NCBI GenBank assembly: GCA_016928255.1 | Contig: JAFGLB010000197.1 | Span: forward strand, 1-40,121 | Length of the DNA stretch: 40,121 nt | Origin: Bacteroidota bacterium | Lineage (GTDB): Bacteria > Bacteroidota > Ignavibacteria > UBA10030 | Direction: 5' to 3' | Shown: positions 9,772-35,616 of the stretch, piece by piece | How the letters are laid out: every line of letters begins with the position of its first letter | Position numbering within the stretch: position 1 is the first letter of the stretch | Made by a program: the position numbers and the translations under genes | Notes under the pieces: model-generated | What the model saw: only the letters and a program-made list of their open reading frames with translations | Database searches by the model: none | What the model was told of the DNA's origin: nothing

Positions 9772-9790
9772 AACTGATTTTATGCAACGA

Positions 9791-9890
9791 AGATAAATTG
9801 CCACAACCTTTAAGTCGTGGTATTTGATAAAGAAAATATAGCAGACTTTAGTCCAATAAAATTATCGAAAATGGGATTAAAATCCAATTA
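9791..9890. repeat. Decayed hairpin-array element
   Basis: This stretch aligns with 38725-38824, starting AGATAAATTGCCAC in both. It keeps the same succession of stems: CCACAACC with AGTCGTGG (imperfect), GAC-TTTA-GTC (9844-9853) and GGAT-TAAA-ATCC (9874-9885). Two stems differ from the other copy by changes on both sides that preserve pairing. The right-hand fourth hairpin of the intact element is not evident here. Confidence 0.7.
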
Positions 9891-13894: not shown

Positions 13895-15490
13895 CTACTT
13901 AATCAAGACCATCTTCTTCGTAATTACAAAAGCATTTTTAACATTTAGCTGATAAAAATACACACCACTACCGACATGTTGACCGGCAGAGTTTGTGCCG
14001 TTCCATTCAATGGTATATTTACCAGGAGTCTGCATGCTGTTAACCAGTACGGCAACTTCACGGCCAAGGATATCATATATACGTAAGGACACGGCATGCC
14101 GTGTCCCTACAATGGTATATATAATTTTTGTTATTGGATTAAACGGATTGGGATAATTTTGAGATAACGAATATTTTTCAGGAACTCCATCCTGTCTGTC
14201 AATTCCATTCGGATCCGAATATTCAAGCGCGCCTATGTCCCATTGCCCGTCATTACCGCGAATTTTACATTCAAAATCCTGCGAGAAATTGTAATCTGGA
14301 AATAAATTCTTTATTTCCAGAGGAATTATTACATCAGGATTCAAGCCGATATTTCTGGCGGGACTTATTTCCGATAAATGAAAATCCGAACTTACAGGAC
14401 TTACAAACAGAGTATCGAGATTAGTCATTACATATTCTTCATCCATCAGGCTCCATCCATACCTCTCCTTCTGCGACCAGCTTAATCCTGTGTATATATT
14501 ATTCGATCTTGACATCAGCATGCCGGTTTCACCCCCGGGTCCGCCGTCGCAGATATTGTTCTTTATTATTACTTTGTTCAAATCTTCAAAGTACTGTGTT
14601 ATGCCAACTGCATTATTTGTGCTGCTGAACAGAAGTGTATTGTTTGTTATCACCAAGTATCCATAACAATACGAATTCTCGCTTCCATTCTGCCTGATAA
14701 TATTTGTTCCGGTTTCTTCTTCCTCATTCAACACGCCCAGAATAATGTTGTTATGAACTACTGTATTTGTATTAACCTCGAACGTAAAAACTTCCGATGT
14801 TGCTTTAAGAAAATTATTTGCCGTCAGAGAATTGATAGTGGTGAAAACGGAGACCGGATTACCATGCGTTCCTTCGCATTCAGTGATTGTATTATTCAGA
14901 ATTCTTAAGTTCTCGCTTCCCATGGACCAGATGCCTTTATATCCGACTTTTGTAATGATGTTATTACAAATAGTCACATTTTTTGCACCGGCATTTATAC
15001 CCGAATTTCTTTGGCAATTATGAATAAAATTGTTTTCTATAGTTACGCCGTCGGCATTTCCAATGGAAATCGAGCCTTTTCTGCCGTCTCTGGTCCGTGT
15101 ATGAGTTATTTCGCAATTCCTGATTATGATATTTTGCGCCGGAGCATCCCATGTTTTGTTATTCCAGATCGCATATGCGGCACCGTCGCTTGTGTTACCT
15201 TGGACTTTCAATCCCTCAATACAAACATTACACTGACCGTTTATCCCTATGCCATAGTTTCTTGTACTAATACTGAAAGAGCAGTCTTCAATTTTGCCAT
15301 AAGGCCAATAGTAGAGTTTCTGATTCGCTTCGTCAACCACATACTCACCCGGCCTGTCCAGTGCCGATAGATGGTTTACCATACTGTAATATTGGTCCCT
15401 ATCCCCGTAAACAGCTTCGCTCGAGAGCGAATCAAAGAAGATCGTATGAGATCCCGGATCGAAAGAAACAACTTTCTTAATACCGATCAC
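13895..15490 (-). CDS. Beta-helix protein with T9SS sorting domain, C-terminal part of an interrupted gene
   Basis: This 531-residue frame starts at a GTG (15490) and has no signal peptide. It is the continuation of the frame at 15503-16132, separated only by an in-frame TGA and four codons, so it is best read as the distal part of one gene of 746 codons. It contains many right-handed parallel beta-helix rungs (NNI/N-x-I repeats, about residues 90-320), a choice-of-anchor-Q-like segment ending DIGALEY, and a T9SS sorting domain in the last 88 residues. That domain is unusual: a 28-bp palindrome encodes VGTRHAVS in the loop where relatives have KLKVRSEV. Without the signal-bearing first part the product could not be exported. 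Confidence 0.75.
   Translation of the reverse strand: MIGIKKVVSFDPGSHTIFFDSLSSEAVYGDRDQYYSMVNHLSALDRPGEYVVDEANQKLYYWPYGKIEDCSFSISTRNYGIGINGQCNVCIEGLKVQGNTSDGAAYAIWNNKTWDAPAQNIIIRNCEITHTRTRDGRKGSISIGNADGVTIENNFIHNCQRNSGINAGAKNVTICNNIITKVGYKGIWSMGSENLRILNNTITECEGTHGNPVSVFTTINSLTANNFLKATSEVFTFEVNTNTVVHNNIILGVLNEEEETGTNIIRQNGSENSYCYGYLVITNNTLLFSSTNNAVGITQYFEDLNKVIIKNNICDGGPGGETGMLMSRSNNIYTGLSWSQKERYGWSLMDEEYVMTNLDTLFVSPVSSDFHLSEISPARNIGLNPDVIIPLEIKNLFPDYNFSQDFECKIRGNDGQWDIGALEYSDPNGIDRQDGVPEKYSLSQNYPNPFNPITKIIYTIVGTRHAVSLRIYDILGREVAVLVNSMQTPGKYTIEWNGTNSAGQHVGSGVYFYQLNVKNAFVITKKMVLIK
14083..14110. repeat. REP-like palindrome inside a T9SS sorting domain
   Basis: The core GGACACGGCATGCCGTGTCC (14087-14106) is a perfect 20-bp palindrome. 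With its flanks GTAA and CTAC it forms a 28-bp palindrome with one mismatch. It lies in frame within the sorting-domain coding region and encodes VGTRHAVS. A related 28-bp palindrome with the same GTCCCTAC end occupies the equivalent place in the gene at 37274-38491. Confidence 0.8.
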
Positions 15491-15502: not shown

Positions 15503-15505
15503 TCA
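15503..15505 (-). other. In-frame TGA interrupting a beta-helix gene
   Basis: The frame from 16132 runs through GAYIQM, then TGA, then VQPNVIGIKKV without any shift. A Trp (TGG) at this place would give IQMWVQPN, a natural continuation, so a single G-to-A change explains the stop. TGA acts as a true stop elsewhere in the window, for example at the pntAB/pntB overlap, which argues against recoding to Trp. Confidence 0.8.
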
Positions 15506-16151: not shown

Positions 16152-18116
16152 TTATCTGATTAATAACATTTTTTTTGTACTGATAGAACCATTACCGCAT
16201 TTAAGCTGGTAAAAATATACGCCGCTTCCGACCTGCCGCCCGACGGAATCATTACCGTTCCATTCTATCGTATGCGTGCCTGCTGACTTCTGCTCATTTA
16301 CTAACACTGCAATCTCTCTCCCAAGAATATCATAGATTCTCAATACCACTTCACTTCTCACTTTTAACTTATAACTTATCACTGTGTTAGGATTGAACGG
16401 ATTGGGATAATTTTGAGATAATAAGAATCTTGAAGGTGCGTCCGATTGTTCCGTTTCATAGACGTTTGTTGCTCTTCCTAAATTTTCCAGAGCAAGGATT
16501 GTATCTACCCAATAATCATTACCCGGATCCGCAGCACCTACATAAGCAGAAATCATCACATCTGGCAAATATGGGTGCCCTCCCCCTAAACCACCGTTAG
16601 CCATGGTAAGGAAATTGTCCAGCATGTAGTCTGAAATAGTCTTATAACACAAGGCACCGGTCGTTCCACGGTAAGGTGAATCCGAATCCCTTTTATAAAC
16701 ATCATCTGCTGATACTGTAGCTTCAATTTCAGATTCAGTGTAATCCTTGTTTGAAAACCGTACGACCTGAGCGCCCTGAGCGCATGCATAAAACAGGTTT
16801 CGTGATACATTAAAGTTCTCTAATTTTAATGGTTCACCTGCATCACAATTTTCAAGACTTGATCCTTCAAATGACAACGGCGCCCAATCATATCCAATCG
16901 ATGCATTGTCTATAATGTTATTAACAGCATATCCTCTGTAGTAATCGACGGATGTACCCAGTAACGCACTATCATAGCCATCAGGGATAATGCGGAAATT
17001 TATCCCCTGTAATCCGTTTGCCTTGATTAAATTGTTATACACACAGGCAAATACCGGGCCGCGCCTGCTGCTGGACTCATCTCTTAATAAGACGCCAATA
17101 CCGGCATTAAAATCATTTTTAGGAGACAGAATAATAATATTGTGATGAACCTGCGTATAATCCTGATCAATACGCATGCCGTACGGAGAGTTGATTATTA
17201 TATTATGATGAATATCATCTCCGTATTCGCGATATATCGCGCTATTAGGAAGAGAATCTGAAGAATTTTCAGTTTCACCGTAGGTATATCCCGTAAGTCT
17301 TTGCATCCCTTTATGCACAATAGCGATAGGAGTGTATTGACCGGATTTTGCTCCATCGCCATCGAAGAGATTGTAACGGATAATATTTTTTGTCATGGCG
17401 CTTTGAATATTAACAGGATGCTCGTAAGAGTAGTCGGCGACCATCGCTAATTGAGCGTTCCCTGTATTTTTCTCGCCGTTTAAATTTCCATTGGCCTTAA
17501 AATAGCAATACTCAATAAGACAATTCTGCGGGTGTATCAAACGAATCCCTCCCGTAGCACCCGGGTCACTTTGCCGACCATGATTATGATGAATATACAG
17601 ATTCCGAAATGTGCAATTCTTCAAGTATTCTAAAAGGATTCCTTCTCCACCGCTTGGAGGATTCACAGAATCACCGCCTCCGGTAATCTCCATATCTTCA
17701 AACGTCCAAAACGACATTCCGGCGCCGCCTGTTCCCCAAAAAACTGCCGGGCGGAAATATGCAGGATCCCGGTATAGACCGTCCACTTTCGCCCATTCAC
17801 CGGGATATGATTTTATAGTATTCGGCGATCCAGCTAATCCATGACGGCAAGCAGTGAGACTTATATGTGTCTCATTATACGTGCCTCCTCTAAGATATAT
17901 TATATCTCCAGGATTCATCGCATTTATCGCAGCCTGGATAGTTGCATAACCTTTCCCTGGGCCGTGTAAACCAACATATTCGCCTCCATCCACTTCATTC
18001 CAACCAGAACCGTTTTCTGCTGGGGGTATATCAACATAATAATTTTCAGCTTGCAGCGAAAGAATTGCTAATATTAGCGTCAAATTGAAAGATATAGATC
18101 TAAATAATATTTTCAT
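16152..18116 (-). CDS. Secreted right-handed beta-helix protein with T9SS sorting domain
   Basis: This 654-residue protein has a signal peptide (residues 1-23) followed by YYVDIPPAENGSGW and a cap segment IQAAINAMNPGDIIYLRGGTY. About 400 residues of parallel beta-helix follow, with Asn/Ile-rich rungs such as NIIRYNLFDGD and VHHNIIILSPK. The last 88 residues are a T9SS type A sorting domain (QNYPNPFNPNTVISYKL to STKKMLLIR). Such proteins cross the outer membrane by the type IX system and are usually anchored or released at the cell surface. Many beta-helix enzymes are polysaccharide lyases or epimerases, but no specific family or active site can be assigned. It lies 19 nt before the interrupted gene and 54 nt after the gene upstream. 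Confidence 0.82.
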   Translation of the reverse strand: MKILFRSISFNLTLILAILSLQAENYYVDIPPAENGSGWNEVDGGEYVGLHGPGKGYATIQAAINAMNPGDIIYLRGGTYNETHISLTACRHGLAGSPNTIKSYPGEWAKVDGLYRDPAYFRPAVFWGTGGAGMSFWTFEDMEITGGGDSVNPPSGGEGILLEYLKNCTFRNLYIHHNHGRQSDPGATGGIRLIHPQNCLIEYCYFKANGNLNGEKNTGNAQLAMVADYSYEHPVNIQSAMTKNIIRYNLFDGDGAKSGQYTPIAIVHKGMQRLTGYTYGETENSSDSLPNSAIYREYGDDIHHNIIINSPYGMRIDQDYTQVHHNIIILSPKNDFNAGIGVLLRDESSSRRGPVFACVYNNLIKANGLQGINFRIIPDGYDSALLGTSVDYYRGYAVNNIIDNASIGYDWAPLSFEGSSLENCDAGEPLKLENFNVSRNLFYACAQGAQVVRFSNKDYTESEIEATVSADDVYKRDSDSPYRGTTGALCYKTISDYMLDNFLTMANGGLGGGHPYLPDVMISAYVGAADPGNDYWVDTILALENLGRATNVYETEQSDAPSRFLLSQNYPNPFNPNTVISYKLKVRSEVVLRIYDILGREIAVLVNEQKSAGTHTIEWNGNDSVGRQVGSGVYFYQLKCGNGSISTKKMLLIR

Positions 18117-18170
18117 ATTTAATATCTTCTTAAATAATTATTTTTTAATCACCACACTTTATGCAATCTA

Positions 18171-20012
18171 CTATTTGATCAGAAGCATCTTTTTATTACT
18201 AAAAAAACCATTACCGGTTTTCAGCTGATAAAAATATACACCGCTGCCTACTTTATGCCCTGCCGAGTTCGTGCCGTTCCATTCAACCGCATGATCACCC
18301 GCGTTTTTCACCTCGTTTACCAGAGCATCTATTTCCCTGCCCAGTATGTCGTATATCTTTAATTCTACTTCACTTCTCACTTTTAACTTATAACTTATCA
18401 CTGTGTTAGGATTAAACGGATTGGGATAATTCTGAGATAAACTTATTTTTTGAGGCAATGGGAGATTGCGAACATCGGCCGATGTCTCTTGAGATGTATC
18501 AATGCCTAAGACATAGTAGACTTTCTCGGTTTTAATTTGGTATTCTCCCGTTAACGCTCCTTTGCCTGTACATACGGGAGCTAAAGCAGAAAAATCTCCG
18601 TTAGCGGCATCAGCAAAGATAGGATCTGTTTCATAGGAATTTTGGTCCCAGCCGTATACTTCCCTCCAACCGTCAAGGTCATAGAATCCGCCTAATTCAC
18701 CATAACTGACAGATTCCGCAAATCCGAAGCTTACAGCAATATTTGGGTTATAATAGCAGTTTGAATCAATATTAATTCCATTTCTCAATTTAAGATAAAG
18801 CAAGTCCGACATATACGTGCCCAATAGAACAGTTCTCTTTTCCTGATGATAGTTTGCGTTTGTATCATAAACTACATTATCCGTAAAAGAATTATTTGTC
18901 ACATCGTCCCATGGACCGTTGTTATGATCTACCCAATTCAGCGTGGGACTCATATGAAAGCCGGTCGTTCCATAAACCGTGTTGTTACGAAATTCCTGAA
19001 ACTGCTGGTGAGTGGTACCTCCCCAGTCCTGTGACGAGACGGCGACACCTGATCCTGAATTAATTATATTGTGATGTATAAAGGCATGATGCGTCCCAAC
19101 ACCGATATGAACATACTTATGATTTTCAAAATAATTCGCGTAGAGTTCAAAAACACTCCCCGGATCTCCTGAGCTGTGCTTGTACTTTATGCCGAAGCCC
19201 GAGTATTGACCGTAACTATCGCCGTTTTGAAAAAAGATATTATTATGTATACTGATCAGACCCTGATTACTGAATAGAACAAGATTGCCGCTATTATGTG
19301 TTTGTGTATTATTCTGAGCGGCAGTTCTATCATAATTGTCATAGAATATCGAATTATATACTTCAATTTCCCTGCTTCCTTGTATTTCCATTCCGGCTAC
19401 ATTATCGGCGGCTGTTCCGTCTGTGTTACCTATTAACAAATTATTTATAGCAATATTTTGAGATGAACTCAACAGCAATCCTCTTCCATAAGCGTTTCTT
19501 ACTTCTAATCCTTGAACATGAATATTTGAACTTTGTAGTATATAGATCCCTATGCCTCCGCCTTCAGGATCTAAAATGGCATGATGTCTAGGATAATTTC
19601 TAATTACGACAGGCGATTCCTCTGTCCCATGAAGTCCCCGCATATAAAGGATATAGGAGCCACCTCCGTCAGCACCGCCGTCATCTCCTGGATGGTAAAT
19701 AGTATTGTGTACGCCCTCCATCAGGTATAGTACATCTCCGGGAGACAATCCCACCCAGTTAGATGGACGATACCCCGCATAAATACTTTGATTTATATTA
19801 ACCATTGTACGCCAGGGTTCTTCAAAGGTGCCAGGATTGTTATCATTCCCGTTTTTTGGATCTATATAATAGCATTTCCCGCCTCCTACCGCATTGCAGT
19901 ATCCATCTTCTATTTCTCCGCAATTATTCACAATTGCAACCTGCGGATACAAAAAACCTATGAATAGAAAATCAATTAGGAGTGATACAATTATTACGGA
20001 TATGGCTTTCAT
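18171..20012 (-). CDS. Secreted right-handed beta-helix protein with T9SS sorting domain
   Basis: This 613-residue protein has a signal peptide (about 1-24), then YYIDPKNGNDNNPGTFEEPW, a widely shared start of bacterial beta-helix proteins. LSPGDVLYLMEGVHNT and beta-helix rungs follow to about residue 420 (NIHVQGLEVRNAYGRGLLL, IAINNLLIGNTDG, FIHHNIINSGSG). A linker leads to the C-terminal sorting domain from QNYPNPFNPNTVISYKL to SNKKMLLIK. It is probably a cell-surface carbohydrate-active or glycan-binding protein with unknown substrate. It belongs to the same closely spaced minus-strand series, 41 nt after the PKD-containing gene. Its sorting-domain DNA is almost identical to those of its neighbours, while the rest is unrelated. 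Confidence 0.82.
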   Translation of the reverse strand: MKAISVIIVSLLIDFLFIGFLYPQVAIVNNCGEIEDGYCNAVGGGKCYYIDPKNGNDNNPGTFEEPWRTMVNINQSIYAGYRPSNWVGLSPGDVLYLMEGVHNTIYHPGDDGGADGGGSYILYMRGLHGTEESPVVIRNYPRHHAILDPEGGGIGIYILQSSNIHVQGLEVRNAYGRGLLLSSSQNIAINNLLIGNTDGTAADNVAGMEIQGSREIEVYNSIFYDNYDRTAAQNNTQTHNSGNLVLFSNQGLISIHNNIFFQNGDSYGQYSGFGIKYKHSSGDPGSVFELYANYFENHKYVHIGVGTHHAFIHHNIINSGSGVAVSSQDWGGTTHQQFQEFRNNTVYGTTGFHMSPTLNWVDHNNGPWDDVTNNSFTDNVVYDTNANYHQEKRTVLLGTYMSDLLYLKLRNGINIDSNCYYNPNIAVSFGFAESVSYGELGGFYDLDGWREVYGWDQNSYETDPIFADAANGDFSALAPVCTGKGALTGEYQIKTEKVYYVLGIDTSQETSADVRNLPLPQKISLSQNYPNPFNPNTVISYKLKVRSEVELKIYDILGREIDALVNEVKNAGDHAVEWNGTNSAGHKVGSGVYFYQLKTGNGFFSNKKMLLIK

Positions 20013-20053
20013 TTCTTCGTCTTTTCAAGATGAGTATTATCAAAACAATGGTA

Positions 20054-22417
20054 TCATTTAATCAATATCATTTTCTTTGTTTCAATAAAACCGGTTTCGG
20101 CCCTCAATTGATAAAAATATACTCCGGTTCCGACTAGTTTCCCGGCCGAGTTCGTGCCGTTCCATTCAACCGCGTAATCACCCGCGTTTTTCACCTCGTT
20201 CACCAGAACAGCAATTTCTCTTCCGAGTATGTCATAAATTTTTAATTTTACTTCACTTCTCACTTTTAACTTATAACTTATCACTGTGTTTGGATTGAAC
20301 GGATTGGGATAATTCTGGAACAGAGAAAATTTTTCTATACTATATTTATCTAATTCATCCAAAATGGCGGTAGTTGTACCGTATTCATAGGCTCCTATAT
20401 CAACAGATTGATCGTCAAAATTCCTCTGATGTTTATTAAAATCGAAATAAGTATTCTTGCTGTCGAGACAGCCCTTGTTTCTTGCTGGACTGCTCTCCAT
20501 TAATGTTAGATCTGCATCAAAACCATAATTGCTGAATAAGCCGTCCGGCCCTAATAAACCGGTAAATTGCGGGTCAGCAAAAATACTGGACATATCTTGC
20601 CCCTGCTGGTTTTTCCATTGTTCCATTGTCAGGTATTGAGCTGTCCCGCTCGGCGCATCGCCAATCTGAAAAAACGCACCTTCATCTGTACCTTGGCTTG
20701 CATAAAACAAATTATGATCCGAACAAACCTGAGGAAGAACTTCGTCAATGTTATTAATAAATAAAAACCGTGTAAAGTCGTTTAAGCCGTATGAATAAAA
20801 TATATTGTTTTTTATATATATGTCTTCATGATTTGTGTAACTGAAAGGATGTGAAACCCGGGTTTCGTTATTATCGATCCTTACAACGCTGCTCATTTCA
20901 TATATGTTGCCAGAATACTGGGCATTCCGGCTTACAAATGTATTGCCTATTATTATTATATTTTTGCTTGGTTTGTTAGCATCCACTATGTCAATAAAAT
21001 AACTCGGTTTGCCGGCATTATCCGAAATTAATATATTATTGCGCACAATTATATTTTCTGCGGCACCGATATTCATCATCCCTTCGGCATTGGTAATTAT
21101 ATTACGCTCGAAGGTGATATCTCTTATAATCTGGTTCCAGGGCCCGTTAGGAGAGAGTTGAACAAGCAGATAGTTAAAACGGGTGCCGCCTCCGTTATGC
21201 GGCCTTCCTATAGTCTCAGGATCTATCCAGCCATGGAAAAAGTTATCAGAAATCTGCACATTATTGCTGGTGCGTTCGGTATCCCAGTCAGCGCCTTCTT
21301 CCTGAAATCCGCATACTCTTAAAGCTGTTCTGCCAAAGGCGGGGCGGCAAAATGTGTTTCCTGCGATTACACCTTTATCTATAGCCGTATATGCAATATG
21401 ATTGCCTGAAAGATCAAAAGTATTATTTAAGCAGGCAAACCTTGATCCCCACATGGCCAGGAGGGTTGAACTTTTTTCAGGATCAATATATGCATTGGTT
21501 ATGGTTGAATTAAATATAAATGTGCCTGAAGCCAGTCCTGTTGGGGATGGGTTTATACAGAATAAGTCAGAGTACGCATCACGGCTATCTACTCTAAGAA
21601 ACAGAATATTTCTTGTATGGCCGCCCTGGGCAAAGAAAAAAACACTTGCCCTGTGCCCTTCATAAGCATTGAAATGAAAATCAAGATCAACAAATGATAC
21701 ATGAGCAAGTCCGATTGAGTAATGGTGAATTATCAAACCATCGTCAGGACCTTTGTACCGGATAACCGGTTTTGATCCGCTTCCGTAAGCTCCGAACATG
21801 TAACCCCAGGCAGGCCAAGCTTCGGGAGTGATTTCAGTTAATGTGAGCTCAAATATCTGTCCACGGTTAAATAATATTTGGTCTCCCGGCTCGTACAGTT
21901 CGCCAGCCATTTCGGAAAAAGCTTTGTCAGCCGTTTTCCATGGGCCGCTTGCTCCGCCCGTATATGTTTGCGACAGGCCGTCATAACTGTCGTCCCCGAG
22001 TTCAGAATCCACATAATAAATATTGCCTTCGCGTTCAAGTACTTCTACAGTAATCGTTTCCTTATCGCTGATACCCAGGGTATCGATTACCGTCAATGTT
22101 ACTGTGTAACTGCCTGGAATCTCGTAAACGTGTCCGGCATTAAACCCGTGGAATAGAGAGGACCCGTCTCCAAAATCCCACTGATAATCGACAATTGATT
22201 CACGCGGGGAGGATTCCCAGCCCTGAAAGAAAACAGGTAACGGCGCATACCAGCGGGTTAACCTTGCACCCGGAAAATGTGCCTCTATATCTATTGGAAT
22301 GCCTCCGTCTGTATACCATTGCGCATCATCCACTGTGATAATTGCGTTAATTCCCTGCCCTTTAGTAATGCCGCTGATGAATAAAAAAAACAGTAAAGCT
22401 GAAAATAAGTATTTCAT
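20054..22417 (-). CDS. Secreted PKD plus beta-helix protein with T9SS sorting domain
   Basis: Counted from ATG 22417, the protein has 787 residues. I prefer this start because AGGA lies about 9 nt upstream and MKYLFSALLFFLFISGITKG is a standard signal peptide; a GTG at 22441 would add eight residues. Residues 54-128 form a PKD domain (YQWDFGDGSSLFHG, then GSYTVTLTVIDTLGISDKE). From about 134 the beta-helix cap begins (YYVDSELGDDSYDGLSQTY), with rungs to about 640 and an anchor-Q-like ending SVDIGAYEYG. The T9SS sorting domain closes the protein. PKD domains often mediate binding in extracellular polysaccharidases, so a surface carbohydrate-active role is likely but unproven. Confidence 0.82.
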   Translation of the reverse strand: MKYLFSALLFFLFISGITKGQGINAIITVDDAQWYTDGGIPIDIEAHFPGARLTRWYAPLPVFFQGWESSPRESIVDYQWDFGDGSSLFHGFNAGHVYEIPGSYTVTLTVIDTLGISDKETITVEVLEREGNIYYVDSELGDDSYDGLSQTYTGGASGPWKTADKAFSEMAGELYEPGDQILFNRGQIFELTLTEITPEAWPAWGYMFGAYGSGSKPVIRYKGPDDGLIIHHYSIGLAHVSFVDLDFHFNAYEGHRASVFFFAQGGHTRNILFLRVDSRDAYSDLFCINPSPTGLASGTFIFNSTITNAYIDPEKSSTLLAMWGSRFACLNNTFDLSGNHIAYTAIDKGVIAGNTFCRPAFGRTALRVCGFQEEGADWDTERTSNNVQISDNFFHGWIDPETIGRPHNGGGTRFNYLLVQLSPNGPWNQIIRDITFERNIITNAEGMMNIGAAENIIVRNNILISDNAGKPSYFIDIVDANKPSKNIIIIGNTFVSRNAQYSGNIYEMSSVVRIDNNETRVSHPFSYTNHEDIYIKNNIFYSYGLNDFTRFLFINNIDEVLPQVCSDHNLFYASQGTDEGAFFQIGDAPSGTAQYLTMEQWKNQQGQDMSSIFADPQFTGLLGPDGLFSNYGFDADLTLMESSPARNKGCLDSKNTYFDFNKHQRNFDDQSVDIGAYEYGTTTAILDELDKYSIEKFSLFQNYPNPFNPNTVISYKLKVRSEVKLKIYDILGREIAVLVNEVKNAGDYAVEWNGTNSAGKLVGTGVYFYQLRAETGFIETKKMILIK

Positions 22418-22451
22418 GCAAAGGGTTCCTGAATTCAGCACAACAATAAAA

Positions 22452-24293
22452 TTATTTTAGAAGCATCATTTTTTTTGCTGCTACAAAACTGTTGCCGGTC
22501 TTTAACTGATAAAAATATACTCCGGTTCCGACTAGTTTCCCGGCCGAGTTCGTGCCGTTCCATTCAACCGTGTAATCACCCGCGTTTTTCACCTCGTTCA
22601 CCAGAATAGCAATTTCTCTTCCGAGTATGTCATATATCATTAATACCACTTCACTTCTCACTTTTAACTTATAACTTATCACTGTGTTTGGATTGAACGG
22701 ATTGGGGTAATTCTGAGACAATATAAAATCCGAAGGAATATTTGAATTCGAATTTCCATGGATTCCTGTTGTTCCATATATTTCCGGAGGACAGGGATAG
22801 CCCAGATATTCCCATATATATGATGTCAATGTAACAGGACCGCCGTACAATCCATTACTGTCATCACAAAAGCCTCTGGTTCCATCGTTAACATAATTCC
22901 AAGTCCTCATTTCAGATTTTATTATATCTTCATTCGGAAAAGGCCAGAGTGGTTCATTGATTAAGGAGTCATATCCCGGCTCACCCCAGAGTGTACCCGA
23001 AACACCATATCTTTTTATAACAGTTGCGCCAATATTCCCACCATCCGATGCTGCACCCTTGAGCGGAGAATCATCTTCAACACGGCAGATATATTTAAGT
23101 CCATGATTAACAAACCTATCACTGTACCCTGCAACAGGAGCGGGCACACCCCAGGTATGTCCGAAGTCTTCTGCATTGTTGAAATAATCATTATAATCCG
23201 ATGTCATGTAATTGACTATACCGTACGAATTACAATCAGTTATAATAGAGTTTCTGATTTGTTCACTGACAAATCCGTTATCGGCACATGCCCCGGAACC
23301 CCAGGCATATGATTCGTCCTGACAGACACCCCAGATATTTCCGATTGTCATATGATTTAACAATAGAGTCGGATTACCACTAACTCTTCCTCCTCCATAA
23401 CCTCCTTTCGAGTCCCAAATTATAGAATTCTCTATCAATCGAGTACCATTGTTCTTCGGATCGCTGATTGCACCCAAACCACCAAGGTTTAAGAATATGC
23501 AGCCTTGTATTCTTGCACTGTTATCGCCTGGAGTTGTTTCTTTATTCTCGAACCATATTCCGCCGTAGAGATTCCCGTATAAATATGGATCATCGTCTCC
23601 TGAATTTATGCTTATACAATTCTGCATCATAAAATCATGACAATCGTATGAAGTAAAAGTAGCGCACTGCTGTCCCCAGTTGGATGTCGGATCGTGGTAA
23701 TCATGCCTGGACACACACCGTCTGAAAATAATCTTTTCCGTCAGAATATCTTGGTCCCCATACGCCATGAATTTATACCGCCCGCATCCGTATGCAAAAC
23801 ATTCTTCAAACAAGACATAACTTGAACCGGTTCCGACACCGACTACCGTTGTATTATCATCGCAAATATCTCCGCGAAAAGAACATCTGATGAATTTCAG
23901 ATGATGTCCGCTCATCCCGTCGGTATTAACGGTAAAATGAATTCCCTGTATATGTATGTAGCCTGTATTTGTTCCTGATATCCTTAAGCGGCCAGTTACT
24001 CTTACCTGCCAATCGTTTTCTGCTTTGATAACCGTATACGCTGTTGGAGAGCCCGGTGGAAAACCATCCCCATAATAAGAACGTATCGGTTCATCGTAAA
24101 CTCCGTCTTTTATGATCAAAGTATCGCCGCTGTTCATTATCGAAAATGCATGTGAAAAAGTTGCCCAGGATTTCTCCGAAGAACCTGGATGAAGATCATT
24201 TCCATTCATAGCCACATAATACTTCGCCGCGTTAGAAAACGAAAAATGGAATATCATAAAAAATATTAATATTACAGTTTTGATTCTTTGCAT
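22452..24293 (-). CDS. Secreted right-handed beta-helix protein with T9SS sorting domain
   Basis: This 613-residue protein has a signal peptide (about 1-22), followed by YYVAMNGNDLHPGSSEKSW and SIMNSGDTLIIKDGVYDE, the cap of secreted beta-helix proteins. Rungs run to about residue 380. After them a segment LWPFPNEDIIKSEMRTW through TLTSYIWEYLGYPCPPEIYG appears; I recall it as a conserved tail in many bacterial beta-helix proteins, independent of secretion route. The protein ends in a T9SS sorting domain (AAKKMMLLK). The neighbouring genes lie 34 nt downstream (PKD beta-helix) and 27 nt upstream (heparinase-like). No catalytic residues can be assigned. Confidence 0.82.
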   Translation of the reverse strand: MQRIKTVILIFFMIFHFSFSNAAKYYVAMNGNDLHPGSSEKSWATFSHAFSIMNSGDTLIIKDGVYDEPIRSYYGDGFPPGSPTAYTVIKAENDWQVRVTGRLRISGTNTGYIHIQGIHFTVNTDGMSGHHLKFIRCSFRGDICDDNTTVVGVGTGSSYVLFEECFAYGCGRYKFMAYGDQDILTEKIIFRRCVSRHDYHDPTSNWGQQCATFTSYDCHDFMMQNCISINSGDDDPYLYGNLYGGIWFENKETTPGDNSARIQGCIFLNLGGLGAISDPKNNGTRLIENSIIWDSKGGYGGGRVSGNPTLLLNHMTIGNIWGVCQDESYAWGSGACADNGFVSEQIRNSIITDCNSYGIVNYMTSDYNDYFNNAEDFGHTWGVPAPVAGYSDRFVNHGLKYICRVEDDSPLKGAASDGGNIGATVIKRYGVSGTLWGEPGYDSLINEPLWPFPNEDIIKSEMRTWNYVNDGTRGFCDDSNGLYGGPVTLTSYIWEYLGYPCPPEIYGTTGIHGNSNSNIPSDFILSQNYPNPFNPNTVISYKLKVRSEVVLMIYDILGREIAILVNEVKNAGDYTVEWNGTNSAGKLVGTGVYFYQLKTGNSFVAAKKMMLLK

Positions 24294-24320: not shown

Positions 24321-26426
24321 CTATTTTAAAAGCACCATCCGCTTTGTATCTGTAAAACTGCTGTTAGTTTTTAACTGATAAAAATACACACCGCTGCCGA
24401 CTAGTTTTCCCGCCGAGTTTGCACCATTCCATTCAACCTTATAATTACCAGCATTTTTTACCTCGTTTACCAGGACAACAATTTCTCTCCCGAGTATGTC
24501 GTATATTATTATTTTCACATCACTTTTCACTTTTAACTTATAACTTATCACTGTATTTGGATTGAACGGATTTGGATAATTCTGAGTCAAAGCAAAATCT
24601 GCGGGATGCATCTCTTTTTTTACATCCGTAATATAACCTCCGGTATTAATGTAATTTTCAAGATCGGCCTCATTTCTGCCAATATACCAATTGACTTTCA
24701 GACTCTGACTCTGGCATGATACAAGAAGAGTATTGAAAACTTCCTCCGGAGAACCGGGCTGTACCATAACCGACTGGCAAGTCATTGCACTGGATGACCG
24801 GATCATCATAATATATCCGTCCGGCAATAATATCTTGTCATTAGCAAGTATATACGGATTGGTGACCCAATTGAACGATAAATTATGTACACTTCCATCA
24901 TCGGTGCTGACAGAATCGTTTATTTCCAGAATATCACGCGAGCGTTCGTAATGAACCCGGCGAGTCCAGAAAACAGTAGTCGGATTTAAGCAGTACGCTG
25001 AATCAAGTCTGGCTAAATAAGTATCATCGTCAATTCTAATCATCGTACCATACGCCTTGCGCTGTGCTGGAAGCGAAGGATATGGACTGACCTGACCATT
25101 GCCGTCGACGAGGAGTACATTATTCATCTGGGAAAGAGGAGAATAATTCTGGCCGCCGCCGTTTCCGAGAATAACTGTATCATTAGAATGGAATATGACC
25201 GTTCCCTGACATGGTTGGTAATGACTTCCGCCATAACCGGCACGAAACCAGACGAGTCCGTCATGCTTATTCCAGCTTTTCCTCATAACAGCAACACCGG
25301 CACCGTCGAAAAATTTCGAAAGCGGCCAACCGGCATCGGACGGCGATATAGGTTCTACAGTTCCCCAATAAAGTAAATGGTGCCAATTCAGCCATCCTAT
25401 CGGCGGCGGCATTGTGTTCCAATCGGCCAGGAAATCATCATAGTCTCCCCGTCTGCATGGTGAAGGATTCGAATAATAATGCCAGGCTATAACGGGATCG
25501 TTGTATGCTGACGCAAGCTGTAATAAATTCGTATTGTAATAATAGACTATTGCATGGCCTTCGCCATGACCGGCGCCTACATACCCGGCTTTTGAAAAGA
25601 ATGTATGAACATCCGAATCCTGTTCCCAGAAAGACAGCACATAAGTTCTGTAAATTCCTTCATTATGAAAAAGATTGCCTGCATATGTATATGGATTAAA
25701 TGATGTATTCCGCGCCAGGGCGGCGAGGAGCGGTGAAAAATTCTCCAAATCCCATAAGCCATAACCGTTCGGAGAGGTTAAGGTCTCATCTATCATCATC
25801 CCGCTCCCTCCTGTTATGGCTCCGGGACATCTGTCGAACCAGTTACGGAGAATTTCTATTGCCCTTGTCTGGGATAAAACTGACTGCGGTTCTGACGGGA
25901 ACATCAGGGCCGGATATAACATTCGCTGTATGTAATAATCAGTCATATGAGATATGGCCCAATTATTAATATGCTCGGCGGCATAGTACCACTGCGAACT
26001 TACAAGGGATTCATTATATATATCTGTCGACATATTTATCATAACAGTTTTAGTGCGGCTTTGTTCATCCGGTGTCATATAATTCCATTGGAAATCGCAG
26101 ACATAAGCATAATCAGGATTCCATCTGTAGGTTCCCGTATCTGAAAATATTCCAGTTTCTTCTACATGAGCGACCCATGACATAAGCCAGTCAATCGATT
26201 CGTCCGACCGCAGTCCTCTTAAACATGCCTCTAATGCAGACTCAAACATTTCGTCGCTTAAATGATCGTCACCCAGTCTTTGCGCAAGAACAGGTATATT
26301 TTCAGGACCAAACAGAAGGCATGGATGCGTTTCTGCCTTCGGCGAGCAAAATGCAATTCCAGAAATCAATACCGAGAATACTAATAAGCCGAGAACCGTC
26401 AGGAAAATTCCTTTTATAGATGTCAT
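24321..26426 (-). CDS. Secreted heparinase II/III-like protein with T9SS sorting domain
   Basis: With the ATG at 26426 the protein has 701 residues. This start has AGGA 8 nt upstream; an ATG at 26444 has none. A signal peptide (about 1-27) precedes an alpha-helical region (about 35-350, with NNWAISHMTDYY and a GAGHGEGHA motif at 285-292) and a beta-sandwich domain (about 370-600). This layout fits heparinase II/III-type polysaccharide lyases. The region GVAVMRKSW, then GYGGSHYQPCQGTVIF, matches the family segment that usually reads HGHAD; here it is H402-Y-Q-P-C406, so two positions differ. It may be a divergent or inactive lyase of acidic polysaccharides. The T9SS sorting domain spans about 614-701. 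Confidence 0.7.
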   Translation of the reverse strand: MTSIKGIFLTVLGLLVFSVLISGIAFCSPKAETHPCLLFGPENIPVLAQRLGDDHLSDEMFESALEACLRGLRSDESIDWLMSWVAHVEETGIFSDTGTYRWNPDYAYVCDFQWNYMTPDEQSRTKTVMINMSTDIYNESLVSSQWYYAAEHINNWAISHMTDYYIQRMLYPALMFPSEPQSVLSQTRAIEILRNWFDRCPGAITGGSGMMIDETLTSPNGYGLWDLENFSPLLAALARNTSFNPYTYAGNLFHNEGIYRTYVLSFWEQDSDVHTFFSKAGYVGAGHGEGHAIVYYYNTNLLQLASAYNDPVIAWHYYSNPSPCRRGDYDDFLADWNTMPPPIGWLNWHHLLYWGTVEPISPSDAGWPLSKFFDGAGVAVMRKSWNKHDGLVWFRAGYGGSHYQPCQGTVIFHSNDTVILGNGGGQNYSPLSQMNNVLLVDGNGQVSPYPSLPAQRKAYGTMIRIDDDTYLARLDSAYCLNPTTVFWTRRVHYERSRDILEINDSVSTDDGSVHNLSFNWVTNPYILANDKILLPDGYIMMIRSSSAMTCQSVMVQPGSPEEVFNTLLVSCQSQSLKVNWYIGRNEADLENYINTGGYITDVKKEMHPADFALTQNYPNPFNPNTVISYKLKVKSDVKIIIYDILGREIVVLVNEVKNAGNYKVEWNGANSAGKLVGSGVYFYQLKTNSSFTDTKRMVLLK

Positions 26427-26458: not shown

Positions 26459-28729
26459 TTAGTTCAATAAAATCATTTTCATTGTTTTACTAAAACCCGA
26501 TTCACATTTTAATTGATAAAAATATACACCGCTGCCGGCTTTCTGTCCCGACGAGTTTGTGCCGTTCCATTCAACCGTGTAATCACCCGCATTTTTCACC
26601 TCATTCACCAGAACAGCTATTTCTCTACCGAGTATATCATATACCTTTAACACCACTTCACCTCTCACTTTTAACTTATAACTTATCATTGTGTTAGGAT
26701 TGAACGGATTGGGATAATTCTGGTAAAGCCTCATTTCCTGCGGCAAAGAGATTTCCGTAACTTCAGTACAGCCCGATAGAATTATCTTTGCGAGTGAATC
26801 ACGTGCAGCTTCCCAAGTATCTGGATTAGTCGACCAACTGATATCAGTACGAATCCAGGTAGGGTCTGACAGTTCCTCCACACCGACTTCCCATACCACT
26901 TTCGGAATTATCGAATTCACAATATTTTGAACGGCTTGAGGATTAATTTCTGAAGCCATTGTCAGATAATCATGATCCTGTAAACCCCGCCGCCAGTATT
27001 TCATCCGCAAACTGGCAAACGGTCCTTTTACATTATATGAAGAATTCGGAAAGAGACAATCAGTACCGGGATACAGCAATACACCATCGCCATTCGAATA
27101 ATTATAACCCGTTTCGCCTTTCTCCGCATCTGTTTTGGTGAACGATCCGAACGTACGGGCACTTTGAAATAAATCCACTTTTCCCGCACCGGCCTGGAAA
27201 TCGTCATAATAAGTTGCTTCCCAATAAAACCAGCGATTGACATGTTTCTTAAATTGAGTCCAAGCTGTAACACGGAGTGCTACTCCATCGTCATCCGTTG
27301 CAAATGATCCGGCGGCAGGGCGCGCACCATTATAAAGCATGAATTGCTTTACGGGATCACCTATATATTGATTTGCCGCATTTTCCCACACATCTGTAAT
27401 ACCTATTGTAGCTGTAGACGCAGGAATTACGAGCGACGGCGTATTAGCAACTGCATCGGGCAATTGAATTGTCACCATTGATTTCAGGCGGCTGCCCGGT
27501 CCGGGATTGTTTGCGAGCCATTGACTCCAAGTTTCAATCTGCAAAAAATTACTCGACTCATCTATCAAGTATAAAAAATAGTCGGTCTCGGGAGAATTTG
27601 CCTCGAACCAATTAACCCAGTTATCGGAATGCCGCCGCATAGCAGTATCGCTTTTCCATGAATCCGGAATACCATAAGTGTGCACCGAATAGACATTATT
27701 TCCAACATTCACGCCGGGTCCGTCATATCCGTTAGCACTCGTAAAAAAATCACCTTTCAGTCGTTCTGAAAGATCATCGGCAGGATGATCATCCGAAGTA
27801 TAATCGCTGTTAATCCAGCTATCATCACCAATAAGAGAGATTTTATGCCGGTGAGTTATCATAAAATGTCTGTCCTGAATCAATTTTGCATCGTCTTCAT
27901 CATCACCTTGAATCCATCCCTGCCCAAAAAACCGCTCATTAATCTCGCCGCCGCTGAAAGCCAGCATCGTTTTAGCGGTCGGCATGTCAGGAAGTGCAAA
28001 ATCATAGACAGTCAGCTCGACCGGAACAACATAATTATGATCTCCACTTTCTGTGATTTGAACCGCTCCGGTATACAGTCCAGCTGCAGCATTTTTAGGA
28101 ATGTATATATCCACCCATATGCTTTGATTTTTTTGCTGTTCGATTGTAAATGACGGGACCAATTCCAGCGGTACTGCTATTTCCGGATAATGTTTATCGT
28201 GATCCGGGCGATCAGTCCATAATCCAGTTCCCGATCCGTTTTCATCATAAGGCCTGCGCAAACGTTCAGGAATATGGCGTTCATCATACGTTTCATAACC
28301 CATGAGACTTAGTCCCCTGATTTGCAGGTATCTAACATAAAAAAGTTCAATATTTCTTCCGACCCAGTTAAATACGCCGTCACCGCTTGCAGGACTCGAT
28401 TGAATAACCGAACTTTCGGGACATGTGAGCAGGCCAAATGCAACATTTACCTCCGTCGCCTGCTGGATTGCAGCTTCAATTACCACATTAAAATTTACTA
28501 CTTCATTTTTTGCCCCTTTAATTTTTACTTTCGTTCCATCCCAGATATGATTAATTACAGCTCTGCCGTTTGGCTGTCCAACACGTAGTTCCTCCTGCGC
28601 GACCTTATCACCGCCCTCATTCACCCATATTGCACTAATACCCTGTGCACAAACTTCCATGCCCTGATGCCAAAACAAAATAAATATGACAAATACAATC
28701 ATTTTAGTAATGCATTTATCGTTCATCAT
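26459..28729 (-). CDS. Secreted DUF4091 glycoside-hydrolase-like protein with T9SS sorting domain
   Basis: This 756-residue protein has a signal peptide (about 1-29). An N-terminal beta domain ends at the typical VPVELTVYDFALPDMPTAK (about 235-253). A TIM-barrel-like middle carries an adjacent acidic pair D390/E391 (YFLYLIDESSN). A DUF4091-type segment follows, with RWFYWEATYY, then NGDGVLLYPG and GPFASLRMKYWRRGLQDHDYL. This order resembles GH123-like beta-N-acetylgalactosaminidases, where an Asp-Glu pair is catalytic; I infer a similar hydrolase. The T9SS sorting domain occupies about 669-756. An AAAGGA site precedes the start. It sits between the heparinase-like and pectate-lyase-like genes, consistent with a shared glycan target. 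Confidence 0.75.
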   Translation of the reverse strand: MMNDKCITKMIVFVIFILFWHQGMEVCAQGISAIWVNEGGDKVAQEELRVGQPNGRAVINHIWDGTKVKIKGAKNEVVNFNVVIEAAIQQATEVNVAFGLLTCPESSVIQSSPASGDGVFNWVGRNIELFYVRYLQIRGLSLMGYETYDERHIPERLRRPYDENGSGTGLWTDRPDHDKHYPEIAVPLELVPSFTIEQQKNQSIWVDIYIPKNAAAGLYTGAVQITESGDHNYVVPVELTVYDFALPDMPTAKTMLAFSGGEINERFFGQGWIQGDDEDDAKLIQDRHFMITHRHKISLIGDDSWINSDYTSDDHPADDLSERLKGDFFTSANGYDGPGVNVGNNVYSVHTYGIPDSWKSDTAMRRHSDNWVNWFEANSPETDYFLYLIDESSNFLQIETWSQWLANNPGPGSRLKSMVTIQLPDAVANTPSLVIPASTATIGITDVWENAANQYIGDPVKQFMLYNGARPAAGSFATDDDGVALRVTAWTQFKKHVNRWFYWEATYYDDFQAGAGKVDLFQSARTFGSFTKTDAEKGETGYNYSNGDGVLLYPGTDCLFPNSSYNVKGPFASLRMKYWRRGLQDHDYLTMASEINPQAVQNIVNSIIPKVVWEVGVEELSDPTWIRTDISWSTNPDTWEAARDSLAKIILSGCTEVTEISLPQEMRLYQNYPNPFNPNTMISYKLKVRGEVVLKVYDILGREIAVLVNEVKNAGDYTVEWNGTNSSGQKAGSGVYFYQLKCESGFSKTMKMILLN

Positions 28730-28755: not shown

Positions 28756-31629
28756 TTATTTCATTAAAATCATTTTTTTCGTTTCGACAAAACCGTTGTT
28801 TGTCTTTATTTGATAAAAATATACTCCGCTGCCTACTTTATGCCCTGCCGAGTTTGTGCCATTCCATTCAACGGTATGATCACCCGCATTTTTCACCTCG
28901 TTTACCAGAACAACTATTTCTCTCCCGAGTATGTCATATACTATTATCTTCACGTCACTTTTCACCAATAACTTATAACTTATCACCGTATTCGGATTGA
29001 ATGGATTTGGATAATTTTGATACAAACAGCACTTACAGGGTACAGTCAAATTGCCCGGCTTATCATTTATATCCGTTGTACCCATCGCATCTGTATATAA
29101 ACTTTTAATTTTTGCGGTGGAAAGACAGCTTTTATATATTCGCACTTCATCTATTATTCCGTTAAAAGATTTCATCTGCCCGTCATCCGAACCTCTGCCA
29201 ATATAGAGTTTATCGAAAAACCATGGCCCGGTTGCTCCTTTTACTCTATCAACAACAATCTGTTCGCCGTTAAGATACATTCTTACCACTTTGTTAATCG
29301 GATCGTATGCTGCGGCTATATGAGAAAAGACATTCGGCTTTACAACGGGATATTCAACACTAGCCAGTGAATATCTTGAATTCTCATGTGTGACCCATTG
29401 TATGGAGAGCTTGTCGTTTACAAGCCCGAAATTAAAGTTGGTCCATTCAGAATCATCGTTAATAACCCAGTTGTCGATATTCACTGAAAATGGAATAATC
29501 CATGCTGCCAAAGTAAAAGCCTGATCATCACCATGCAGAGAATTACTGTTCCAGCCGGGCACGGTAATAACATCATCAATTCCGTCAAACAGGTATGCCT
29601 CACCAATCTTGCCGGGAACAAGCACCGGCCCATTTACAGTACCGTCATAATTGTTACCGCTTGAGTCCGTAGCACTGCCGTCGAATTTATAAAATGCCGC
29701 CATTTCTATAGGCGTTTCGTCTCCGGTTGATACCGTTATCGTATTTGAATAATCTGTCTGGCCGGATATTTCGGAGAACGCGCATACACGAAAATGATAA
29801 TCTGAATTCCCGGATAAATCTATCAAAGTATATTCGATCGAATCTTTCATCGCCGATTCAGTGCGAGAGAAATTAATTCCATCTCTGCTCTGTTCAATTC
29901 TAAAAGAATTCTCATTGCCGGAATTATCTTCCCAGTTTAAATGAACACTATTTCCTGACACCCGGGCTGATAAGTTACCAGGTGCGGCAGGCGGCGTAAG
30001 GCCATTTAGATTGCAAAAGCGCTGCTGAGCGGGAATAATTCCGGAATAAGGCAGGTCAGGACCAATATTCGGCCATGGTGTATCTCCCCATGGCGCGTTG
30101 GCAAAAAAATCAGGTTTTGATAAAAGGTAATACGAATTTGGTATATTGTGATTTGTGATATTTGGTTCCCAAAAAGTATTTTCACTTATATAATCAAAAT
30201 TGCCATGACGAATAAGCGTATTCATTGTAAGATTCGTATCGCTGAAATTATCTGGTTCTTCCAGTATGAACCATACAATACGGTTCATAATTGAATTTTC
30301 ATGATGAAGAATATTGCCTATAAAACTCATATAAGGATTATTCTTTTCTATAAAAACAGGCCTGCTTGTATACGAATTTGAGTATCCGTCTGGACAAACC
30401 ATAATATTGCGTAGAAAAATGTAACTTGAATTGCTTCCCCAGTATCTATCCACTGCGGCTTTATTTGTGGAGTTGCCCTCAAAAAGAGTCAAATATGCAT
30501 GATGGCCATGTGCAGACATATCCGCATGCATCTGTGTCCATTCGCCATCCTCATCCATCGATACCCGGCAGTAATTGTATGCATATACATTGCCGCAAAC
30601 TCCAACCGCAGTCATTAACTTGCCCTGCAAATAATCGAAAATATTGTTTTCAATCAGATTATCGGTAGCACGGTCGACAAGATTTATTCCGTATCCCATG
30701 CCTCCCACATATTCATGCCCGCGTTCGAAGTAGCTGTCGCGAATAACATTTCCCAGTCCGCCCCAGATACCGATATGAGATCTTGAACATTGATAACTTC
30801 TTATATTCTTTGCCCAGCAATATACCGCCCTGTCAACATGTATATTGCCATAATATCCATTACAGTTAACAACAAGATTAAAGTGAAGATCTTCAACACC
30901 GGCATATCTGGCAGGATTGTTATATTTTGTAACGGCCGGATTCATGCTAAGGTTATATGAATAATAAAGCGGTTTATGGAAAGTCAGTGAATTTCCAATC
31001 GTATCCACACCGGTAACTAATAAAAACTGGCCTACTGCCCGCCAGCCCCAATGATCCGCTGCCCAGCTGTCATTCTCACTTGGTGCTACGATTGGCCTTG
31101 CCATAACAGCTTCATCATTATCCTGCCTGATCTCAACAAGATCGCCGGTTGAGAAACCGGAGGCATCACCAACGATTATCTGAGAAGAACCTTTTTCACA
31201 TCCTCCAGTTACAGCAGCGGTAAATCCCTTGCTTGGATTTCCTATCCAGATATTTGTCCGCTGGTACTGATCAGGATCGCTTGCCAGTTTTTCAAATTTC
31301 ATAAAAGTCCGGTCAGGACCAGCACCACGCAGTACGATAGATTTTCTGATATCAATCCTGTCTGTTATCAGATACGCACCGGCAGGAATGAAAACCGCAC
31401 AATTCACAGGACAGGCATTTATTGCATCTTTTAGGGCCTGAGTATCATCGGTATTTCCATCGCCGACTGCTCCATAATCCATAATATTTACACCCACCGG
31501 ATATACAGGGACACCGCCGGGAATTCCCGGTTCCCAGTCAATTCTTCTATCTGCCGGTACAATATCCTGTGAATAAACTTTTGCATAAATTAAAATAAAA
31601 AGAAATACCGAGAGTTTTTTTAGGCGCAT
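28756..31629 (-). CDS. Secreted pectate-lyase-3-like protein with FN3, LamG and T9SS domains
   Basis: This 957-residue protein is the largest of the series. A signal peptide spans about 1-20. A pectate lyase superfamily start (VNIMDYGAVGDGNTDDTQAL, 47-66, then FIPAGAYLI) leads into a beta-helix to about 545. FN3 covers 548-635 (PGNLSARVSGNSVHLNWEDN). LamG/concanavalin-like covers about 645-848 (FYKFDGSATDSSGNNYDG, then GIIDEVRIYKSCLS). The T9SS sorting domain is 870-957. The DYGAVGDG-DDT motif is shared by GH28- and PL-type beta-helix enzymes. The LamG and FN3 modules suggest carbohydrate binding at the surface. Substrate is unknown. It lies 26 nt before the DUF4091 gene and 19 nt after the Ig-repeat beta-helix gene. 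Confidence 0.85.
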   Translation of the reverse strand: MRLKKLSVFLFILIYAKVYSQDIVPADRRIDWEPGIPGGVPVYPVGVNIMDYGAVGDGNTDDTQALKDAINACPVNCAVFIPAGAYLITDRIDIRKSIVLRGAGPDRTFMKFEKLASDPDQYQRTNIWIGNPSKGFTAAVTGGCEKGSSQIIVGDASGFSTGDLVEIRQDNDEAVMARPIVAPSENDSWAADHWGWRAVGQFLLVTGVDTIGNSLTFHKPLYYSYNLSMNPAVTKYNNPARYAGVEDLHFNLVVNCNGYYGNIHVDRAVYCWAKNIRSYQCSRSHIGIWGGLGNVIRDSYFERGHEYVGGMGYGINLVDRATDNLIENNIFDYLQGKLMTAVGVCGNVYAYNYCRVSMDEDGEWTQMHADMSAHGHHAYLTLFEGNSTNKAAVDRYWGSNSSYIFLRNIMVCPDGYSNSYTSRPVFIEKNNPYMSFIGNILHHENSIMNRIVWFILEEPDNFSDTNLTMNTLIRHGNFDYISENTFWEPNITNHNIPNSYYLLSKPDFFANAPWGDTPWPNIGPDLPYSGIIPAQQRFCNLNGLTPPAAPGNLSARVSGNSVHLNWEDNSGNENSFRIEQSRDGINFSRTESAMKDSIEYTLIDLSGNSDYHFRVCAFSEISGQTDYSNTITVSTGDETPIEMAAFYKFDGSATDSSGNNYDGTVNGPVLVPGKIGEAYLFDGIDDVITVPGWNSNSLHGDDQAFTLAAWIIPFSVNIDNWVINDDSEWTNFNFGLVNDKLSIQWVTHENSRYSLASVEYPVVKPNVFSHIAAAYDPINKVVRMYLNGEQIVVDRVKGATGPWFFDKLYIGRGSDDGQMKSFNGIIDEVRIYKSCLSTAKIKSLYTDAMGTTDINDKPGNLTVPCKCCLYQNYPNPFNPNTVISYKLLVKSDVKIIVYDILGREIVVLVNEVKNAGDHTVEWNGTNSAGHKVGSGVYFYQIKTNNGFVETKKMILMK

Positions 31630-34257: not shown

Positions 34258-35616
34258 TTAACGTAATAGGATGAGTTTCTTAAATTGTGAAAAAGCTCCT
34301 GCTTGCATCTTATACAAATACACACCGCTTCCGGCTTTCTGTCCCGACGAGTTCATGCCGTTCCACTCAACCGTGTAATCACCAGCACTTTTCATCTCGT
34401 TTACCAGAACAGCAATTTTTCTTCCGAGTATATCATATACTATTATTTTCACATTACTTTTCTCTTTTAACTTATAACTTATCACTGTATTAGGATTGAA
34501 AGGATTGGGATAATTTTGATAGAGAATAAAATTATCTGGCACATCAGCATTTAATGCGGGCATGACTGAAGTGCCGGATGCCGGGGGTACAGCAGCCGAG
34601 TTTATATCGAATCCGGGCCTGCTCATCCATTCACTTATATCCACTGCCTCAAAATCGCTTCCTTGAATACTTTTCAGTGAATTGATCTCATCATCATCCC
34701 ACCTGTCATCATGAGTCCCCTGAAAGAACCAATTGCCTCCATTATCAGCAACTATAATTCCATATTTTTTCATTGTTTGAAGAATAACCTGCATGCGTGG
34801 AGAAAATCTGGATATATCAACATCTGCTTTCAATCGGAACCTTAAACCCATAGGGGGGCGATTCTGATCGGTAGAACTTGAAGCATAATGTCTAGCCGGC
34901 CATATATAAGCGCGTTGAGTAGTGCGTACGGTGAATCTTATCGCATGGTGAATCACTCCATCGCCTGCTAAAGCACGTTCGACTTCATCATATCTGATCA
35001 GCAGGGGGAATATCGGCAGTCCTGCCGCATCTGCCGATGTCCATCCGTCTTCTCTAAGTGCGTTGGACGTTAAATCGAAAACTGCTCCGCCTCCGGCCCA
35101 CCAATCACTTGGATTATCCGGCGGAAAAGTATCCCAGTCTTCCGGTTCTTCCATAGAATGCCCTGCCGGCCAGGTGTACCATGTTTCATATAGTTTTTTA
35201 GCACTTGTATCTATGACAAGTATATGCCTGTCACCTTCATCATCGTCTGTAAAATAATTTAATCCCTCAACAAGCGGCGGTATGGGTATCGGATAAGGTC
35301 CCGGATCGCTTTCGTATTCAAAAGTCAATGAAATCATTGCCTGTCCCTGTCCCACGAGATTATACGAGATTCCCATGGAGCGCCCCTCGTAATAAGTACC
35401 AAAATCCGGATGAATACCGGTAGCTGCACCTATGCTGGCAACGTAATTATTCGAATTAGTGTGCACGGGAAGTGCATCAATCGGCATGTTCAATGCATGG
35501 TTCAGGGGAAAAACCTGACCTGTATAATCCGGCATTTGCTGAGCATAGATCAAGTACGGTATCAAGATCGTAATCGATACGAAGATAAAAGCAGATAATG
35601 ATTTTTTAGTTTTCAT
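34258..35616 (-). CDS. Conserved secreted protein of unknown function with T9SS sorting domain
   Basis: This 452-residue protein has a signal peptide (about 1-25). It is not a beta-helix. A globular domain (about 30-330) contains the blocks RHILVIDTSAKKLYETWYTW, PLLIRYDEVERALAGDGVIH, HAIRFTVRTTQRAYIWPARH, PPMGLRFRLKADVDIS and MKKYGIIVADNGGNWFFQGT. I recall these as a conserved family in secreted proteins of several phyla, with no assigned activity. The domain ends at DEINSLKSIQGSDFEAVD. The sorting domain is a diverged copy (VYLYKMQAGAFSQFKKLILL). Gaps of 122 nt downstream and 73 nt upstream separate it from its neighbours. The function is unknown. Confidence 0.78.
   Translation of the reverse strand: MKTKKSLSAFIFVSITILIPYLIYAQQMPDYTGQVFPLNHALNMPIDALPVHTNSNNYVASIGAATGIHPDFGTYYEGRSMGISYNLVGQGQAMISLTFEYESDPGPYPIPIPPLVEGLNYFTDDDEGDRHILVIDTSAKKLYETWYTWPAGHSMEEPEDWDTFPPDNPSDWWAGGGAVFDLTSNALREDGWTSADAAGLPIFPLLIRYDEVERALAGDGVIHHAIRFTVRTTQRAYIWPARHYASSSTDQNRPPMGLRFRLKADVDISRFSPRMQVILQTMKKYGIIVADNGGNWFFQGTHDDRWDDDEINSLKSIQGSDFEAVDISEWMSRPGFDINSAAVPPASGTSVMPALNADVPDNFILYQNYPNPFNPNTVISYKLKEKSNVKIIVYDILGRKIAVLVNEMKSAGDYTVEWNGMNSSGQKAGSGVYLYKMQAGAFSQFKKLILLR

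Follow-up and report, generated by a model that had tools for sequence, protein, structure and literature searches.

The window analysed here, a 40,121-nt stretch of DNA from genome G000 (3.16 Mb in 224 contigs), contains twelve cargo genes ending in C-terminal sorting domains. The window proteins that were scanned against NCBIfam gave C-terminal matches to TIGR04183 of 31.8–43.1 bits (cut-off 23), confirming the original prediction that a 41-nt stretch shared by several of these genes lies inside a type 9 secretion system (T9SS) sorting domain. The genome encodes approximately 78 T9SS type A sorting domains as well as SprA, the component of the machinery that was searched for (802 bits, cut-off 200), and the TIGR04183 matches together with SprA identify the window sorting domains as predicted T9SS secretion tags. 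The cargo regions upstream are unrelated in most cases, as had been proposed, although a few pairs are weakly similar (24–34% over 80–221 aa). The one cargo searched for in five sister species, that of g26459, had no match in them.

The 41-mer, which reads AACACAGTGATAAGTTATAAGTTAAAAGTGAGAAGTGAAGT on the coding (minus) strand, is identical at all four places originally reported, with exact matches running to 41–59 nt, pair by pair, among the four genes (Table 1). Five others among the twelve cargo genes contain near copies: the four expected at about 24520, 26650, 31855 and 34460 were recovered, together with a further one in g28756 that the original prediction had not listed. Dinucleotide shuffles gave no match to the 26-nt core at up to three mismatches, and a whole-genome search at the same threshold gave 13 copies, all at places coinciding with sorting domains. 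Within the T9SS type A sorting domain the encoded peptide, NTVISYKLKVRSEV, covers one strand, a turn and the first part of the strand that follows, together referred to here as the sorting-domain hairpin.

Table 1. Sorting domains, repeat tracts and the candidate exchange tract in the window.
Feature	Gene	Position	Strand	Remark
Sorting domain	g16152	16152..16436	(-)	TIGR04183
Equivalents of g16152 sorting domain		end at 13895, 18171, 20054, 22452, 24321, 26459	(-)	
Further equivalents of g16152 sorting domain		end at 28756, 31649, 34258, 35690, 37274	(-)	
Heptamer tract (41-mer), sorting-domain hairpin	g16152	16348..16388	(-)	exact match
Heptamer tract (41-mer)	g18171	18367..18407	(-)	exact match
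Heptamer tract (41-mer)	g20054	20250..20290	(-)	exact match
Heptamer tract (41-mer)	g22452	22648..22688	(-)	exact match
Heptamer tract, near copy	g24321	24520..24552	(-)	26-nt core, 1–3 mismatches
Heptamer tract, near copy	g26459	26658..26690	(-)	26-nt core, 1–3 mismatches
Heptamer tract	g28756	28955..28980	(-)	more diverged
Heptamer tract, near copy	g31649	31848..31880	(-)	26-nt core, 1–3 mismatches
Heptamer tract, near copy	g34258	34454..34486	(-)	26-nt core, 1–3 mismatches
GTAG-type REP palindrome GTAGGGACACGGCATGCCGTGTCCTTAC, same hairpin	g13895	14083..14110	(-)	peptide VGTRHAVSLR
GTAG-type REP palindrome, same hairpin	g37274	37472..37495	(-)	partly decayed; peptide VGTSFMKS
Likely gene-conversion tract, shared with g22452	g20054	20109..20236	(-)	0 silent differences, two replacements; hand-counted from difference map
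Partner of likely gene-conversion tract	g22452	22507..22634	(-)	hand-counted from difference map

Nine related window sorting domains were aligned by codon, and their silent divergence was expressed as a fraction of saturation, the silent difference expected with codons drawn randomly from the window's own usage. This fraction was 0.63 at the domain start, 0.10 in the region of the 41-mer, 0.62 and 0.56 in the middle segments and 0.83 in the last 17 codons. Across 15 domains genome-wide, codons for the same residue differed at 0.18 in the frozen stretch versus 0.46 elsewhere. Approximately 40 nt are frozen within otherwise old copies, and the sorting domains are not freshly copied. Codon bias was considered as a cause of the freeze and rejected, the expected silent difference in the core being 0.64, as high as elsewhere.

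The identity of the 41-mer had been attributed to whole sorting domains being exchanged by gene conversion, or to recent duplication with cargo replacement. Exchange among the 3' ends of these genes agrees with the sharpness of the domain boundary, the DNA similarity between genes with unrelated cargo beginning abruptly approximately 263–272 nt before the stop codon, where the original prediction had asked for breakpoints, and with the expansion in this genome of the heptamer-type domain, which is absent from five sister species. It also agrees with a single two-sided tract in the adjacent genes g20054 and g22452, in which approximately 128 nt without silent change are flanked on both sides by diverged sequence and end before the last codons (global P ~0.02 in a GENECONV-style run test with the core left out). 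No other gene pair reached significance in that test with the core left out, and outside the heptamer core the domains stand at 56–83% of silent saturation, the upper value in their last 17 codons. Since conversion of whole domains, or their recent duplication, would have removed silent differences outside the 41-mer as well, the 41-mer is not evidence of homogenised domains. The homogenised-cassette explanation of the 41-mer is therefore largely refuted, and it is unlikely to account for these genes overall; what survives of the proposed exchange is the boundary at the domain start and the g20054/g22452 tract.

The frozen DNA is a tandem repeat, made up of the heptamers AGTGATA, AGTTATA, AGTTAAA, AGTGAGA and AGTGAAG, with the general form (AGTKADM)n. 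Periodicity at lag 7 exceeded a synonymous-reshuffling null both in this genome (z 8.5) and in G038, a relative from another family (z 10.7), while lags 4, 5, 8, 10 and 11 gave no comparable excess under the same reshuffling (largest z 2.4). Because 15 of the loops in this genome are related and leaving them out reduces its lag-7 signal to a weak z of 2.3, G038, which contains several heptamer versions (AGTTATCAGTTAAAAGTGA, AATTATCAATTATCAATT and CAGTTATCAGTTACCGG), is the better independent evidence for heptamers, and heptamer captures in the present genome may be few. Of 98 genomes from the order, 48 matched a degenerate heptamer pattern. Its reversed control likewise matched in some AT-rich genomes, but in G038, G078, G082 and G089 the heptamer pattern is many-fold commoner than the control. 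Heptamer tracts are also intergenic in this genome, two of them having an exact 17-mer in common with the 41-mer, and the silent-site freeze is confined to this repeat, which is present outside sorting domains as well. In G078 several sorting domains share an identical string of 25–28 nt with intergenic sites whose flanking sequences are unrelated.

A different origin for the heptamers would be growth in place, in which the natural codons for ISYQL, already heptamer-like, expanded into the turn by replication slippage and the intergenic resemblance arose by convergence. Heptamer-bearing domains are of normal length, which makes insertion no more than a possibility for them and agrees with growth in place, as do the coverage of the strand codons by the repeat and the commonness of heptamer tracts across the order. 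It is harder to reconcile with one genome in which sorting-domain and intergenic copies have exactly 26–28 nt in common, including the order of the variant heptamers, and it leaves unexplained the palindromes described below, so that growth in place appears rather doubtful as the explanation.

In g13895 and g37274, as in seven further sorting domains of the genome, the same hairpin is encoded by a palindrome of the pattern GTAGGGAC-N12-GTCCCTAC, read in frame, with common arms (GTAGGGAC and GTCC(CTAC)) and a variable inner sequence. Of 72 loops, 9 were more self-complementary than their synonymous reshuffles (P<=0.01; 0.7 expected), and eight of these nine are of the GTAG-palindrome type. The genome contains 17 copies, of which seven are intergenic, one lies in a RAYT-like transposase gene and nine lie in C-terminal sorting domains (CTDs). 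The last number is far above the 0.1 expected, given that sorting domains make up approximately 21 kb of the 3,155 kb, although some of these domains share ancestry. The palindromes are short, start with GTAG and are dispersed in the genome, and the copy inside the RAYT-like gene identifies them as GTAG-type REPs. Exact 28-nt palindromes were found in 23 of the 98 genomes of the order, in which a control pattern had no match. Of the 46 intact copies fetched from relatives, RAYT-like genes hold eight and sorting domains only two, with the others in intergenic DNA or other reading frames; because sorting domains account for so few of them, the CTD excess may reflect retention and not preferred landing.

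The association with RAYT consists of palindromes inside RAYT-like genes, so named because their proteins, at 42.7–75.7 bits against NF047646 (E 5e-11 to 3e-21), stay short of its curated 80-bit cut-off; the in-frame palindrome, carried by all RAYT-like proteins scored, may itself lower this score. Such a REP-type palindrome is found in frame in the RAYT-like genes L146, L296, L298, L303, L312, L315, L319, L321 and L324, at about one place, after the PNHxH motif. In named genomes, a pattern requiring the palindrome and then the next strand was matched nine times, at 7 loci. Eight of these matches fall in sorting domains from Ignavibacteriales, Ignavibacteriae, Neomarinimicrobiota and Chlorobi records, with differing inner palindromes; since the pattern demands the following strand, they indicate spread and not enrichment. 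The hairpin of one sister species contains CCCCCTTTTATAAAAAGGGGG.

Constraint on the nucleotides themselves, with 40 nt frozen by a function of the DNA or mRNA such as binding or the pacing of translation, would fit the confinement of the freeze to the 41-mer stretch, but the same place in other domains of the genome holds quite different DNA, palindromes included, and G038 has several heptamer versions there, making such constraint very improbable.

The structural model of the g13895 sorting domain (pLDDT 90.5) places strands at residues 17–23 and 28–35, and the repeat-coded VGTRHAVSLR forms the turn and the start of strand 28–35. The closest solved chains by profile were PorU and FlgD, with which a fold search agreed weakly (PorU, TM 0.71). 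The loop often keeps its length, from which it appears that the repeat replaces the old turn; the VGTSFMKS type adds five residues. The existence of two junction types suggests that repeats were captured independently at least twice in this genome.

Taken with the fold, these repeats indicate that the sorting-domain hairpin has probably taken up dispersed repeat DNA in frame time and again, and has retained it where the peptide still makes a hairpin. The 41-mer would be a translated piece of the dispersed heptamer repeat, and transfer would have run from the repeat to the hairpin, with both heptamer tracts and RAYT-linked GTAG-type REP palindromes entering as they moved or recombined around the genome. 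The incoming repeat would often substitute for the old turn with its length kept, and in-frame copies would persist through selection on the fold, where the encoded peptide still forms the hairpin. The approximately 78 sorting domains of this genome would offer many targets and make capture visible. The heptamers may have come by recombination or may partly have grown in place, and a tract, once captured, would spread with duplication of the domain. The silent-site freeze suggests that exchange of short tracts then keeps the tract alike while the rest of the domain drifts.

In-frame repeats are already established in the form of intragenic REPs and the Rickettsia palindromic elements (RPE), of which RPE-1, -4 and -6 have been discussed (PMC3733652). 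The palindromes described here resemble the GTAG-tagged REPs tied to REP-associated tyrosine transposases, which are likewise short, dispersed, mostly intergenic and in some cases intragenic (PMC3733652, PMC2817692). Reported intragenic REPs occupy varied positions, for the most part in genes of DNA repair or RNA-related genes (PMC3733652), whereas in the present case a single hairpin of a single secretion domain is struck again and again, and in several phyla. The Rickettsia elements are also repeats in frame inside working proteins (PMC3733652), but by description they are longer and scattered over unrelated genes, whereas here there is one target domain, which takes up non-palindromic heptamers too. 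Recombination among surface proteins with sorting domains is also described for T9SS cargo of Porphyromonas gingivalis, in which adhesin and catalytic modules vary through domain rearrangement or allelic exchange; the parts of that account considered here make no mention of repeat DNA in the sorting domain, unlike the present case (PMC5266723). The literature searched, which excepted most subscription papers, contained nothing that connects sorting domains with gene conversion, with palindromes or with heptamer repeats in this way, and no earlier report of the sorting-domain hairpin as a recurrent repeat target.

If this capture is real, repeat DNA supplies amino-acid sequence to one functional export-signal hairpin, repeatedly and in several phyla, and it becomes testable how often selfish repeats turn into working protein parts and through what filter. 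The locus also cautions against inferring whole-domain conversion solely from short stretches of identical DNA in sorting domains. In a broader proposal, mobile repeats (RAYT-driven REPs and heptamers) would find a general refuge in this hairpin in several phyla, surviving there through the tolerance of the domain, and would then act as recombination handles passing sorting domains between cargo genes. A secretion signal would in that case owe part of its spread to parasitic repeat DNA; the proposal is speculative and seems unlikely to hold in this form.

Several further observations concern repeats in other positions. Among L394, L165 and L317, whose products were named by eye, an in-frame heptamer tract is present in an apparent methionine synthase of two relatives and an in-frame palindrome in an apparent HypF of one relative. 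A second hairpin, near the C-terminus of the sorting domains of L090, L097, L104 and L117, contains inserts of 50–60 nt, those of L097 and L090 being 83% alike over 53 nt; no copies of the four inserts were found outside sorting domains in the sequence at hand.

Within the window, the paralogues at 8261–9142 and 37274–38491 are 47% identical over 279 aa, the former having a lipoprotein-like start and no sorting domain and the latter a terminal sorting domain whose hairpin carries a palindrome, so that one cargo seems to be paired with two different surface-delivery signals. The open frames 13895–15490 and 15503–16132 adjoin with a gap of 12 nt and look like a single interrupted beta-helix gene, because the signal peptide is present only in the upstream frame and the sorting domain only in the downstream one. 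Another dispersed repeat, of 85 nt, occurs outside the sorting-domain genes at 82–166 and 362–446 (99% identical), and a 105-nt pair at 9777–9881 and 38711–38815 is 72% identical at a distance of 29 kb.
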